Source of the DNA: Ferrimicrobium acidiphilum DSM 19497
GTDB lineage: Bacteria; Actinomycetota; Acidimicrobiia; Acidimicrobiales; Acidimicrobiaceae
Length of the DNA: 64,000 nucleotides
Assembly: GCF_000949255.1 (NCBI RefSeq)
Contig: NZ_JXUW01000010.1
Location: 1 to 64,000, forward strand
Reading direction: 5' to 3'
A model generated the notes under the pieces. It searched no databases and was not told the DNA's origin. It worked only from the letters and a program-made list of their open reading frames with translations. The translations under genes and the position numbers were made by a program. Shown one piece after another: positions 35,894 through 42,454 of the stretch (the first letter of the stretch is position 1; each line of letters begins with the position of its first letter).

Positions 35894-36607
35894 CTACGAA
35901 CAAGACTCAAGTCGCCGATCGCCACGAAGCTGACCCAGGAGGCCACGGATCATCGCAGCCAACGCTACCGGAGAGGAGTGAAGGATGTCATGCCCAGAAG
36001 CTGGCAACAGCTCCAGGGTGGCACTAGGTAGACGATCGGCAGCATGAACCATAGCTGCTAGTGGGACCACCCTATCTCGCAGACCAGCTACGATCACCGA
36101 CGGGCATCGCACAAATGGCAACTGGTTCTCCACCAGACGCAGCTCGGCTAGAAGGTGACGTTGCTCGGCTAAAAAACTTCGACGGGTCCGTCCAAACTGG
36201 GAATGTCTTCGTATGCCAAGAGTGACGCCAGCGATCAGCGCAGATGTCATGTCGCCGAAAAACCGTGCGGCGAGTAGCCGATCAATTGCCACAAGCGAAG
36301 TTTGAGTGATAGGGGGCGCTGCCAATACCAGTCCTGCCACCCGCTCAGGGTCAAGCTGAGCGGCCCGTACCGCGATGGTTGCACCCAACGAGTGTCCTAT
36401 AAGGAGAACCCGACGAGAGCCAAACTGTTCCAACACCCATTTCGCATTAGCCTCAATTCCGACCACACCGAGCGGATTCGAACCCCAGCCTGGCCTGTCC
36501 ATGCAGACGACTCTCAACCGAGGATCCATCCACCGATGGACAAGAGCAAAATCCTCCTTCTTCCCAGGTTGTCCGTGCAGAAATACCACCTCAAGATCAT
36601 TTACCAT
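35894..36607 (-). CDS. Alpha/beta hydrolase
   Basis: Predicted hydrolase of 237 aa. The oxyanion region LHGQPGKKEDF lies at the N-terminus. The nucleophile elbow is GHSLGAT, the acid is probably Asp in GLRDRVVPL, and the His is in ASGHDILH. The frame opens further upstream (36646), but the ATG at 36607 directly precedes the first strand and overlaps the stop of the transporter gene by 11 nt, so I use it. The substrate is unknown; the small lid region resembles esterases and C-C hydrolases. Confidence 0.85.
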   Translation of the reverse strand: MVNDLEVVFLHGQPGKKEDFALVHRWMDPRLRVVCMDRPGWGSNPLGVVGIEANAKWVLEQFGSRRVLLIGHSLGATIAVRAAQLDPERVAGLVLAAPPITQTSLVAIDRLLAARFFGDMTSALIAGVTLGIRRHSQFGRTRRSFLAEQRHLLAELRLVENQLPFVRCPSVIVAGLRDRVVPLAAMVHAADRLPSATLELLPASGHDILHSSPVALAAMIRGLLGQLRGDRRLESCS

Positions 36608-37454
36608 CGTGGAGCTCCGAATCGACACGAACCTCGGACTGCGCAAGATAGATCAATGCGAGAATCTCCACTACAAGGGCGAGGATGCTGGCTAACGCGC
36701 TTGGACCAGCCCGAAAGAGCGGCGTCTGCAGCGCTAATGTGCTGATGGTGATAGCAGCGATAGGCTCTCCAACCGCCACCAAAGGCAACACGCGCGCGAG
36801 ACTCTGTTGTTGAAAGGCACTCTGCACAACCAGGAGTGCAAGTGCCCCTACCACCAGTAAAATCCAGAGTTCCCAATGTTCAAGAGTACGAAGCGCTCCA
36901 AACTGGGTCCAAATAATCCCTACTTCGCGCTCAAATATAGAGACGATGCCTAGCAAAATGGCACCTAACATCGCCTGGACCCTGCCATGGCCAGCCAATA
37001 GCGGCCGCAACAGGGTCACGGTCAACAGACCGATGACAACCCCAAGTGCTCCAATCACTATGGATGGAGTGATGAAAATGGTTCGCCCGCTCGCCGGCGG
37101 ACTAAGGACGAGAAAGGTGATGAGTGAGCCACAGCTCACAAATAGCGCGACCACATCACCAACTCCGATAGGTCTGCGAGCAAGAAAATGCTCGAAAAGC
37201 ACGGCGAGAACAAAGCCACTCGCAAGAATCGGCAATACCTGAGGGACCGACCCGTACTTTAAAGCGAAGAACTGCGCCCCACCTCCGACAATATCAAAAA
37301 CTGCCCCGAGGCCAAAGCGCGGGTTTGCCAATAGCCTCCACAAAAGGCTGAAACGAAGATTTAACTCGGTTGCCGAAGCCGTACTGGCTTGGAACTGTAA
37401 AACCGCAGCCATCCCAAAGCAGACCGCAGCCAGTAGAGAAAGAAGCACCACCAC
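36597..37454 (-). CDS. DMT (EamA-like) membrane transporter
   Basis: Membrane protein with about nine to ten hydrophobic helices and few charged loops, in the pattern of the drug/metabolite transporter superfamily. There are two halves of similar hydropathy, with VPQVLPILASGFVLAVLFEHFLARRPIG in the first and RVLPLVAVGEPIAAITI in the second. The frame is open from a TTG at 37529 (310 aa), but that would overlap the divergent glycosyltransferase gene. A GTG at 37454 just before the first helix is a better start (285 aa). The substrate is unknown. It overlaps the hydrolase gene, so the two are one operon. Confidence 0.75.
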   Translation of the reverse strand: MVVLLSLLAAVCFGMAAVLQFQASTASATELNLRFSLLWRLLANPRFGLGAVFDIVGGGAQFFALKYGSVPQVLPILASGFVLAVLFEHFLARRPIGVGDVVALFVSCGSLITFLVLSPPASGRTIFITPSIVIGALGVVIGLLTVTLLRPLLAGHGRVQAMLGAILLGIVSIFEREVGIIWTQFGALRTLEHWELWILLVVGALALLVVQSAFQQQSLARVLPLVAVGEPIAAITISTLALQTPLFRAGPSALASILALVVEILALIYLAQSEVRVDSELHDGK

Positions 37455-37495
37455 GAGGTCTCTAAGTCTATGACCAACTGGTAGGATGAACGTCA

Positions 37496-39268
37496 ATGTC
37501 AACCACAAAGGCACTCCTGCTCTCTGCAAGAATGGGTGGCGGCCACAACGGGGTAGCCCGAGTCGTTTCTGAGGAACTCGCTAGCTACGGGATCGAATGC
37601 GAGACTCGTGATTTTCTTGATGCCTCGCCTCGTATGGGACGCATCCTTGAGCGTGGCTTCAAGCTCGAGGTGGAGCGAGCCCCATGGGCCTATCAGCTCG
37701 AGTTCTGGTTATGGAACGGATTCACACCTATTGTCACCTTCACACGTCGAGTGCTCCAGGCATTTTTTCAGCGCGGCGTGGCTCGTTGGATCGAAGACAT
37801 AGATCCTGACATAATCATTGCACTCCATCCCTTCAGTGCCCAACTGCTAGGCCAGATGCGCCACCAACGCAATCCTGTGGTCTCTAATCGACCAATCGCA
37901 ACCTTTCTCACTGACTATTCAGTTCACCCTCTCTGGGTGCATCCAGACGTTGATCTCCATCTTTGTGTCTCTGAGACGGCGGCTGTGCAGGCTCGCACTC
38001 GCGCGGGTGCCTCCGGAGAGATAGTGGTCACCGGACCCTTCGTTGACCCCAAGTTCTTTAGCCACGTCGACAGACAAGCGGCGCGGGAGGCGCTATCGAT
38101 TCCGAACGATCGCTTCGTAGCACTGATCGTCTCGGGGTCATGGGGAGTTGGTGATATAGCCGAGACCTTTCAGCTCCTGGCGAGCAACGATGAATTCTTC
38201 CCCGTCGCGCTCTGTGGACACAACCGCGATCTTCAAGTTCAACTCGCAAACGATACACGTGGGTTAGCTGTTGGCTGGACAGACGATGTTCGTCTCTACA
38301 TGGCAGCTGCTGATGTCGTGATCCAAAACGCCGGAGGACTTACCTCGCTAGAGGCGATGGCGGCAGAGCGCCCTGTGATCTCCTACCGCCCTATCGCGGG
38401 TCATGGACGTGAAAATGTAGCCGCGATGGAGTCAGCTGGGGCCACCGTATGGTGCCACGACAAGAACGAACTAGTTGAACAGGTGCGAAGCCTGAGCAAC
38501 GAGCCGTCTGAACAGGTAAACAAGCAGCTCGGCCAGTTCCAACCCGCTCCCCACCAGCCGATCCTAGAGCTTTTACACGAAGCTCGCTTGACACAGACAA
38601 CGCGTCGGGGAGTGTGGGCTCTTCGCCTCACGCGCACTGCGGCGATGTTGATCGCCCTTTTCGTGATGGCCAACCTGGTCTCAGGAGTGATCGGCTATCA
38701 CGGCCTGAACCTGACCAAGACCGCCAGCAAATCAAACTATGTCTATCTCTCCGTCCGGCTCTCATCACAGCAGCTCGCGAATCCAAAGATCGATAGATTG
38801 GCGACAAGCTCTGGCATCGGGGTTGTTGTTACTGGTCAGCAAGCCATCTCGGATCCAAACGCGGTCCGCTACGCCTACCATCAGGGTGTCGAGGTGATCA
38901 ACGGCGGGACTGGCACCTCCTCGGACTTTAACTTCATACTCCCAGAGAACGACTTATCTACGGGGCGAGCCGATCTCGCACACGCCCTTGGGGTGCAGGT
39001 GAACGCCTATCTTCCTCAAAACACAATGAATGCCTTTGATCTTGCGTGGGCTTCACTCCACCACCAAACCATCATCCCGGCTCGCATTATTTCACACCGC
39101 TTCAACATCAATCCTAACCCGGGGGCGATTCTGGAGCTGAATCTCACCAGCATGTCGATCACTCACGCTGCTAAGGTCATCGAGGCTGAGATAACACATC
39201 TTGGCAGGAAGCACCTCATCCTGGCACCGTTTGCAACTCTCCACGCTACGAGCGCGGTACGCGCATGA
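37496..39268 (+). CDS. MGDG-synthase-type glycosyltransferase with extracytoplasmic C-terminal domain
   Basis: 590-residue two-part protein. Residues about 5-365 are a GT-B transferase of the MGDG synthase/MurG-like group: SARMGGGHNGVAR (lipid-acceptor glycine loop), a FLTDYSVHPLWVHPDVD region, and the nucleotide-sugar site QNAGGLTSLEAMAAERPVI. A membrane helix follows (AAMLIALFVMANLVSGVIGY, about 385). The remaining ~190 residues lie outside and show the strand order and ending of a NodB-like deacetylase (a PNPGAILELN stretch near the end) without the catalytic Asp/His motifs. TAGGAT lies 8 nt before the ATG with no ribosome site. The stop overlaps the deacetylase gene (ATGA). The transferase call is firm; the domain call is inference. 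Confidence 0.8.
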   Translation: MSTTKALLLSARMGGGHNGVARVVSEELASYGIECETRDFLDASPRMGRILERGFKLEVERAPWAYQLEFWLWNGFTPIVTFTRRVLQAFFQRGVARWIEDIDPDIIIALHPFSAQLLGQMRHQRNPVVSNRPIATFLTDYSVHPLWVHPDVDLHLCVSETAAVQARTRAGASGEIVVTGPFVDPKFFSHVDRQAAREALSIPNDRFVALIVSGSWGVGDIAETFQLLASNDEFFPVALCGHNRDLQVQLANDTRGLAVGWTDDVRLYMAAADVVIQNAGGLTSLEAMAAERPVISYRPIAGHGRENVAAMESAGATVWCHDKNELVEQVRSLSNEPSEQVNKQLGQFQPAPHQPILELLHEARLTQTTRRGVWALRLTRTAAMLIALFVMANLVSGVIGYHGLNLTKTASKSNYVYLSVRLSSQQLANPKIDRLATSSGIGVVVTGQQAISDPNAVRYAYHQGVEVINGGTGTSSDFNFILPENDLSTGRADLAHALGVQVNAYLPQNTMNAFDLAWASLHHQTIIPARIISHRFNINPNPGAILELNLTSMSITHAAKVIEAEITHLGRKHLILAPFATLHATSAVRA

Positions 39269-39978
39269 AGACCACTACAGCGGCTGCCGCGGCGGTCGGT
39301 GCTAAGCTCACGATCCACATCGGATCCTTCCTGACCCACACCTGGATACTTGCACCAATTAGCGCGCCCTGGCTCCTCGGCTTTGGCCATCCACAATCGG
39401 TTGCCCTAACATTTGACGACGGGCCCGACCCGATCTCGACTCCACTCATACTCGACATCCTCGATCTCAACCAGGTCAAGGCGACCTTCTTCGTACTTGG
39501 AGAGATGGTCGATCGCCAACCGGAACTCACCCGCGAAATTATCGAGCGAGGACACGAACTCGGGACTCACGGGTATTGGCACAAGAACCATCTCTGGCGC
39601 AGCGCTAGAAGCATCCGCTACGATCTTGCACGAGCGATCGAGTCAATCGAAACCGCCACCGGCACTCGACCAACATGGTATCGGCCGCCGTATGGGATCA
39701 TAACGAGAGCCGATCTGGTCGCTGCCCACGCCGAAGGACTCCGGCTGATCCTCTGGGGAACATGGGGCAGAGACTGGCGCCGCCAAGCATCATCAGTCTC
39801 GGTGATGGCCGACATACGATCTAGATTCCGCCCTGGAGTCACCATCCTCCTGCATGACTCTGACTGTACCTCATATCCTGGATCATTCCAGGCAACACTC
39901 GCAGCTCTCCCTCAGCTCGTTGACCTAGTCAACTCGCAGCAGCTACGCTTCGCCACCCTCTCCAACCACGGGGTCTGA
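39265..39978 (+). CDS. Polysaccharide deacetylase (NodB fold)
   Basis: Predicted exported or membrane-anchored N-deacetylase of 237 aa. It has an N-terminal hydrophobic stretch, then the catalytic motif LTFDDGPDPIST (base Asp and metal Asp), the metal-binding His pair in THGYWHKNH, the RPPYG motif, and TILLHDSD near the C-terminus with the final His. All NodB motifs are intact, so it should be active on N-acetylated sugar. It is translationally coupled (4-nt overlap) to the glycosyltransferase gene, so the two probably build or trim the same glycolipid or surface glycan. Its 3' end overlaps the convergent AI-2E gene by 36 nt. Confidence 0.88.
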   Translation: MKTTTAAAAAVGAKLTIHIGSFLTHTWILAPISAPWLLGFGHPQSVALTFDDGPDPISTPLILDILDLNQVKATFFVLGEMVDRQPELTREIIERGHELGTHGYWHKNHLWRSARSIRYDLARAIESIETATGTRPTWYRPPYGIITRADLVAAHAEGLRLILWGTWGRDWRRQASSVSVMADIRSRFRPGVTILLHDSDCTSYPGSFQATLAALPQLVDLVNSQQLRFATLSNHGV

Positions 39979-41290: not shown

Positions 41291-42454
41291 GTGAGCACTT
41301 GGCGGTCCAAGAGCGGCGACGGTCGCCGCAACACCTCCCACCGCCTCCCTTCTGATCAGTCGCGAGAGGTTATAACAGGGACCCGACGCAGCCTCAGCAA
41401 GCTTGTTCGCCACTTCGCAATCCGGGGAATATGGGGGTTTGCGATTCTTCTGGTAGTCGAATACCTGGTGATCCCCCAGATCGCTGGAGCAAGAAAAACT
41501 CTCCATCTACTCAGCCAAGCCAATTATTGGCTGATCCCCCTGGCGATTGTGGCCGAGGCGCTATCGCTCTTCTCTTACGCCAAGTTAACATCTGCCGTTC
41601 TCCCACAGCCACAACCGTCGCTAAAGTCATTGGCCAAGGTTGACCTTTCCGGACTGGCGGTATCGCATGTTTTGCCTGGCGGTACCGCAAGTGGCGCTGG
41701 GCTAACGGTACGCCTTCTCAATGGTCTCGGTGTTCGTGGTACGGATGCGGGGGTAGCACTCGCCACTCAGGGAATAGGCTCTGCCGTCGTGCTAAACGTC
41801 ATCCTCTGGCTAGCACTCATAATCTCGCTACCGCTATTCGGTTTCAACACCCTCTACCTAATCGTCGCTGCTCTTGGAATCGTCCTTATGGCCCTCGTGA
41901 TAGCGCTAGTGCTGACACTGACACGTGGCAATCAACGCCTGGTGGATCTGGTAGATAAGATCATCGGAAAAATCCCATTCCTTAACCGCATCCAGTCTCC
42001 GCTACACGCCGGTATCATCCGAGCTGGTGAACGGATCCGTGCTCTCGTCGGAGATCGGGTGCTTCTAAAAAAGGCCGTTACCTGGGCAGCATGCAACTGG
42101 CTCTTCGATGCACTGAGCCTCTGGATTATGCTGCTAGCGTTTGGTTCTGTCGTTAACCCTGACGCGCTACTAGTAAGTTATGGGATCGCAAACGTCGCGG
42201 CGGCAATCCCTATTACCCCAGGGGGACTTGGTGTAGTCGAGGGAATCATGATCCCATTGATCACCGGCTTTGGAACAACTAGAGGCATAGCCATACTCGG
42301 CGTCCTTTCGTATCGGCTGTTCAATTTCTGGATACCAATCCCGGTTGGAGTGGGAACCTATGTCTCGCTCAAGTTAAGCCGAGGAGAGGAGATCACTATG
42401 GAACTCGATCGACTTGACTCTCCACCAGATGAAGAGGATGGCTCGAAAGACTAA
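41291..42454 (+). CDS. Flippase-like YbhN/UPF0104 membrane protein
   Basis: 387-residue protein of the lysylphosphatidylglycerol synthase transmembrane/YbhN family. It has about eight helices, with SHVLPGGTASGAGLTVRLL in the second third and AAIPITPGGLGVVEGIMIPLI near the C-terminus, both family hallmarks. Members move or use lipid-linked substrates; some sit next to glycosyltransferases as glycolipid flippases, which would fit the nearby transferase-deacetylase pair. It starts at a GTG at 41291 with AAGGTGA just upstream. It stands alone on this strand. Confidence 0.85.
   Translation: MSTWRSKSGDGRRNTSHRLPSDQSREVITGTRRSLSKLVRHFAIRGIWGFAILLVVEYLVIPQIAGARKTLHLLSQANYWLIPLAIVAEALSLFSYAKLTSAVLPQPQPSLKSLAKVDLSGLAVSHVLPGGTASGAGLTVRLLNGLGVRGTDAGVALATQGIGSAVVLNVILWLALIISLPLFGFNTLYLIVAALGIVLMALVIALVLTLTRGNQRLVDLVDKIIGKIPFLNRIQSPLHAGIIRAGERIRALVGDRVLLKKAVTWAACNWLFDALSLWIMLLAFGSVVNPDALLVSYGIANVAAAIPITPGGLGVVEGIMIPLITGFGTTRGIAILGVLSYRLFNFWIPIPVGVGTYVSLKLSRGEEITMELDRLDSPPDEEDGSKD

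Follow-up and report, generated by a model that had tools for sequence, protein, structure and literature searches.

A predicted HexSDF-like amino-sugar glycolipid locus whose glycosyltransferase carries an inactive NodB/CE4-like domain, most likely beyond the membrane

In this study, we analysed a 64,000-nt stretch of the Ferrimicrobium acidiphilum genome (hereafter the window) and found a glycosyltransferase (GT) that is joined, through a membrane helix, to a NodB/CE4-like domain which has lost its catalytic residues, with the gene of an intact NodB deacetylase directly downstream and genes of candidate transporters nearby. We predict that these genes constitute an amino-sugar glycolipid pathway similar to HexSDF of C. 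difficile, with a GT that bears an inactive CE4 domain beyond the membrane, and we rate the chances of that prediction, including its product, as about even. What is new relative to the known three-gene pathway is that the GT bears a dead CE4 domain. A text search of the open-access literature, which cannot prove absence, found no account of a fusion between a glycosyltransferase and an inactive CE4 domain.

Results

Glycosyltransferase Domain and Membrane Topology

The fused gene (37496-39268, forward strand) encodes 590 residues, the first 344 of which (37496-38527) represent a cytoplasmic GT-B domain with a GGGH loop and an NAGGLTSLEA motif. In Pfam the protein matched PF06925 (MGDG_synth) at 54.1 bits against a cut-off of 25 (E 2.6e-14), and the C-terminal models (GT group 1/28_C matches) were also above their cut-offs, which places it in the MGDG-synthase/GT28-type family. 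Its top NCBIfam match was NF010135, a UgtP-type diglucosyl diacylglycerol synthase (E 4.1e-36); by profile, the UgtP/YpfP diacylglycerol glucosyltransferases are therefore of the same GT family, though the score of 124.7 bits is far below that model's cut-off of 500, and they differ in having no CE4 partner domain. Among 22 relatives, 42 columns of the GT domain are invariant.

A hydrophobic helix (KD 2.19) follows at about residues 382-400 (38639-38695, forward strand). The 20 residues on its N-terminal side hold on average 4.98 Lys and Arg in the 50 fused relatives, compared to 1.54 on the C-terminal side, and the excess is on the N-terminal side in 46 of these proteins. By the positive-inside count, this bias argues for an orientation with the N-terminal side in and the C-terminal side out, such that the remaining ~187 residues (404-590; 38705-39265, forward strand), here termed the ectodomain, most likely sit on the extracytoplasmic side of the membrane.

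Homology of the Ectodomain to NodB/CE4 Proteins

Residues 404-590 alone had no Pfam match, scoring below the threshold for PF01522, and single-sequence searches with the ectodomain returned chance matches only. The comparisons that carry the assignment were made with profiles built from the ectodomains of 43 fused proteins, which were chosen by a GT or ectodomain match, adjacency to a NodB gene being no criterion. In hhalign, the ectodomain profile aligned with that of the adjacent NodB proteins across 160 columns, almost end to end, at P 3.5e-6, with controls (reversed profiles and unrelated families of the same loci) giving P 0.03 to 0.4. Against all PDB sequences, the first match of the ectodomain profile was the CE4 esterase 2c71 (E 9.5e-4), and CE4 chains accounted for seven of the 13 matches. 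When the 43 ectodomains were scanned singly, PF01522 was the sole Pfam family to be matched by more than one member (seven members, best 2.5e-4). A different branch of the phylum supplied two intermediates, fused proteins that matched the adjacent-NodB profile in a small ORF set (4e-11 and 7e-11); one of them, that of locus L098, exceeded the gathering score of PF01522 (28.6 vs 23.1). A general NodB profile scored above 5 bits in 40 of 47 ectodomains and in none of the 47 reversed sequences, a count to be read with the limit that this profile is not fully independent of the ectodomains because its proteins were found via ectodomain alignment.

The hhalign and PDB profile results, the L098 score and the NodB-profile scores rule out that the ectodomain is unrelated to NodB, and with all evidence combined the homology to NodB/CE4 proteins is secure at the level of sequence comparison. 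A clear origin by tandem duplication of the adjacent NodB gene was rejected as the profile preference differs among members: the ectodomains of L098 and L099 prefer the adjacent-NodB profile, most others the general NodB profile, which is the one not fully independent of them.

The structure is less firm than the homology. Two AlphaFold models of ectodomains were of low confidence (pLDDT 49.6 and 48.8) because each was built from three close sequences. In Foldseek, the 13 best matches of the first of these low-confidence models were all CE4 proteins (top E 2.2e-3), as were the five best of the second (top E 0.07), and the CE4 pseudoenzyme BA3943 ranked first for both. The ranking of the matches lends weak support to the NodB-like fold anticipated in the first-pass annotation of this DNA. 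BA3943 (7BKF, 6HM9, 6HPA) and a second B. anthracis protein, BA0150 (4M1B), likewise have a CE4 fold without normal catalysis, although they are separate deacetylase-family proteins and belong to another sequence family. Neither protein is known to be fused to a glycosyltransferase.

Loss of the Active Site and Conservation of the Former Pocket

Judged by alignment, the Asp-Asp pair, the His-x3-His motif, the motif-3 Arg and the motif-5 His that characterize active CE4 enzymes are all absent from the ectodomain. The position of the catalytic-base Asp is occupied by Arg in 37 of the 43 ectodomains (38756-38758 in the window, a relic of motif 1) and that of the metal-binding Asp by Leu or Val. 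In 42 of 43, Gly stands in place of the first metal-binding His, and the position of the second is variable, the motif 2 region of the window's protein reading Asn-Gly-Gly (38900-38908). In motif 3, Arg has given way to Val, Ala or Leu, and opposite the motif-5 His the alignment has a gap. The Pro of motif 3 (RPPYG in CE4) is kept in 40 of 43 (39014-39016), and eight residues beyond it lies an Asp (Asp112 of the ectodomain; 39038-39040) that is invariant in all 43. All four features are on the forward strand; the Arg at the motif 1 position was located by ungapped extension of the hhalign alignment.

Of the 16 columns with the highest conservation in the ectodomain, eight lie in the windows of the former motifs, which total 24 columns (P 1.5e-4). 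Nonsynonymous change in the ectodomain is far under synonymous change, for which dS is saturated, and we regard this as a sign of purifying selection. Part of the column conservation may be due to structural Gly and Pro residues. Together, the pattern looks like that of a repurposed pocket and not of mere decay.

The Partner Deacetylase and Its Association with the Fused Glycosyltransferase

The deacetylase gene (39265-39978, forward strand, 237 residues) begins within the last codons of the fused gene, the two sharing an ATGA stop/start overlap (39265-39268) that suggests translational coupling and that recurs in L002, L003 and L056. The protein matched PF01522 at E 2.1e-33 and retains complete TFDDGPD, HGYWH, RPPYG and LLHD motifs, with catalytic residues that are invariant in 39 relatives; by its motifs, it is an active-type CE4 deacetylase. 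No second PF01522 gene was found in the window's genome, and the paired NodB is likewise the sole one in genomes G148, G032, G082 and G117, which argues that in these genomes it is a dedicated partner of the GT. The N-terminal hydrophobic stretch of the NodB has about equal basic charge on either side and gave no clear orientation, and by hydropathy there was no clear difference in the strength of the NodB's own anchor in those without a fused GT partner.

The first-pass annotation had described a GT ending in a membrane helix and an extracytoplasmic part, a C-terminal NodB relative stripped of its catalytic Asp and His residues, and a 4-nt overlap with an intact NodB gene, and all of this is borne out by the results above. 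The pair is also not confined to this genome. The fused form is present at 50 loci from at least two branches of the phylum, and a NodB gene lies downstream on the same strand in 46 of them, a recurrence that rules out a chance arrangement of one genome. Unfused relatives of the GT have a NodB gene within 3 kb at 16 of 35 loci, significantly fewer than the fused form (Fisher P 3e-6).

Candidate Transporters

The third most constant neighbour is a gene for a DMT-family permease, found within 3 kb at 39 of the 50 fused loci. In the window this gene (36597-37529, reverse strand, start codon uncertain) is divergent from the GT gene, as in other loci of the same order, while in many class-level loci it is the third member of a GT-NodB-DMT run. 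The family in relatives is NF038012 (DMT_1), for which the window copy scores 48.7 vs a cut-off of 50. The flippase-like gene at 41.3 kb that had previously been suggested for the transport step (41291-42454, forward strand) is a member of the PF03706/TIGR00374 family as supposed, and is located 1.3 kb past the NodB gene with an opposite-strand gene between, but PF03706 genes are near only 15 of the 50 fused loci. On these neighbourhood counts, the DMT permease is the better-conserved flippase candidate and the PF03706 protein an alternative.

An alpha/beta hydrolase gene (35894-36646, reverse strand) overlaps the DMT gene, and same-family relatives, e.g., L002, L003, L056, L058, L059 and L060, likewise have the hydrolase-DMT pair next to the fused GT.

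Discussion

Comparison with Known Glycolipid Systems

In HexSDF of C. difficile, a polysaccharide deacetylase and an MprF-like flippase accompany a GT of MGDG-synthase type; the system is needed for the formation of aminohexosyl-hexosyldiradylglycerol, and the deacetylated lipid is still formed when expression occurs without HexF (PMC10128005). In B. subtilis, hexSDF is sufficient for formation of the same lipid when ugtA is co-expressed (PMC11898633). The likeness to our locus is that an MGDG-type GT adjoins a polysaccharide deacetylase, as at 46 of the 50 fused loci. The differences are that HexS is described without a dead CE4 domain and that the HexSDF flippase is MprF-like, whereas the most constant permease here is of DMT type and divergently upstream in this genome. 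A second system, GpgSDF of P. aeruginosa, produces glucosaminyl phosphatidylglycerol by an analogous three-gene scheme, in which the flippase that accompanies GT and deacetylase is of AglD2/YbhN type (PMC12713373). However, its transferase is of GT family 4 and its deacetylase of COG3233, both are predicted to be cytoplasmic, and they are unfused; GpgD has been suggested to act in the cytosol (PMC12713373). The combination of GT, deacetylase and flippase that the first-pass annotation perceived is therefore a known glycolipid arrangement, and because the gene set matches HexSDF, an amino-sugar glycolipid is a probable product; by this analogy, the locus probably makes an amino-sugar membrane lipid.

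Such lipids alter the charge of the membrane and influence how susceptible cells are to membrane-active antibiotics, and the genes for them have been recognised only recently (2023-2025). The distribution of the family suggests that many actinobacteria may make amino-sugar lipids, and the DMT-family permease can now be named as a candidate for the missing transporter. In addition, a transferase with a dead deacetylase outside, next to a living one, offers a natural handle on the question of the membrane side at which the deacetylase works.

Proposed Pathway and Role of the Dead CE4 Domain

Based on its family and on HexS, the GT-B domain would add an N-acetylhexosamine, for which UDP-GlcNAc is the probable donor, to a membrane lipid at the cytoplasmic face. 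The DMT-family or PF03706 permease would then carry the lipid to the outer face, where the coupled NodB, as its intact CE4 motifs and the examples of HexD and GpgD suggest, would strip the acetyl group to give a cationic lipid. With its altered former active site, the tethered dead CE4 domain may bind the sugar head group; it may also, or instead, dock the NodB, and in this way hand the new lipid over to the deacetylase. A plausible, if putative, role of the domain is to position or activate the deacetylase. The role that we prefer is that of a receptor or docking site from which the active NodB would receive the lipid head group. In its full form, this reading has the repurposed CE4 pocket physically link synthesis at the inner face with deacetylation at the outer face, the dead enzyme copy being the coupling element of a transmembrane GT-NodB assembly line, which we put forward tentatively, as possible rather than likely.

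In a different role, the ectodomain would regulate its own GT, sensing product or wall sugar on the outside and tuning synthesis via the one helix, independently of any contact with the NodB. It is to the GT, not to the NodB, that the ectodomain is covalently joined, its conserved residues are in the former sugar-binding groove, and four fused loci (L075, L076, L079 and L095) have no adjacent NodB. Nevertheless, we consider regulation of the GT unlikely, as the adjacency to NodB in 46 of 50 loci is stronger than that for unfused GTs, and a single helix would be a weak allosteric conduit unless the protein oligomerises.

The history of the fusion raises the possibility that the ectodomain is simply a decaying remnant of a GT-NodB-NodB fusion, serving now as a membrane anchor alone. 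Unfused GTs are nested within fused clades in the GT tree, which indicates an old fused state in this clade, followed by repeated losses. Close unfused GTs also adjoin NodB genes, pointing to the dead copy as an accessory and not a requirement, and together with its repeated loss this marks the ectodomain, as far as sequences can tell, as an optional elaboration of the GT-NodB pair that is dispensable for the chemistry. Repeated loss would be expected of a remnant, as would the column identity of the ectodomain (38%), which is below that of the GT (54%) and the NodB (53%). Against this, the ectodomain persists at 50 loci and in at least two branches of the phylum, it shows signs of purifying selection with its top conserved columns clustered at the former active site, and an anchor has no need of a 187-residue domain. 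We therefore view the remnant explanation as doubtful.

A role of the pair in making or editing a precursor of a cell-wall polymer, such as a polyprenyl-linked sugar, instead of a membrane glycolipid, is similarly improbable. Polysaccharide and peptidoglycan are common substrates of CE4 enzymes, MurG is among the GT28-type folds, and in Streptomyces MatB, a putative polysaccharide synthase, an N-terminal NodB domain and a C-terminal PgaC-like GT2 domain are likewise combined in a single protein (PMC4391728). However, the NodB of MatB is termed a deacetylase domain and not a dead copy, and its transferase is of GT2 type and thought to be polysaccharide-making, whereas the GT here fits MGDG_synth and diglucosyl-diacylglycerol synthase far better than MurG, and the gene set parallels HexSDF.

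Least probable, and by a reading of the residues very improbable, is a metal-free CE4-fold activity in which the conserved Arg (37/43), the Asn-Gly-Gly and the invariant Asp112 (43/43) replace the metal triad, for while the allantoinase PuuE (3CL6), a non-metal NodB-fold enzyme without both motif-1 Asp residues, is a precedent (PMC10967932), no close relative has a known activity, ligand binding or structural Gly and Pro also account for the pattern, and the residue positions come from a remote alignment and low-confidence models.

Several individual loci depart from the common arrangement. The genomes of L075, L076, L079 and L095 each carry at least one NodB gene elsewhere, and at L095 (1502-4656) the fused GT is back to back with a second, unfused GT of the MGDG family. 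At L059 (10028-10753), an extra gene whose product has an N-terminal hydrophobic segment is situated between the fused GT and the NodB. At L156 (6998-8957), the GT and the ectodomain are in different frames of one strand, likely due to a frameshift or split gene, whether an assembly error or real.
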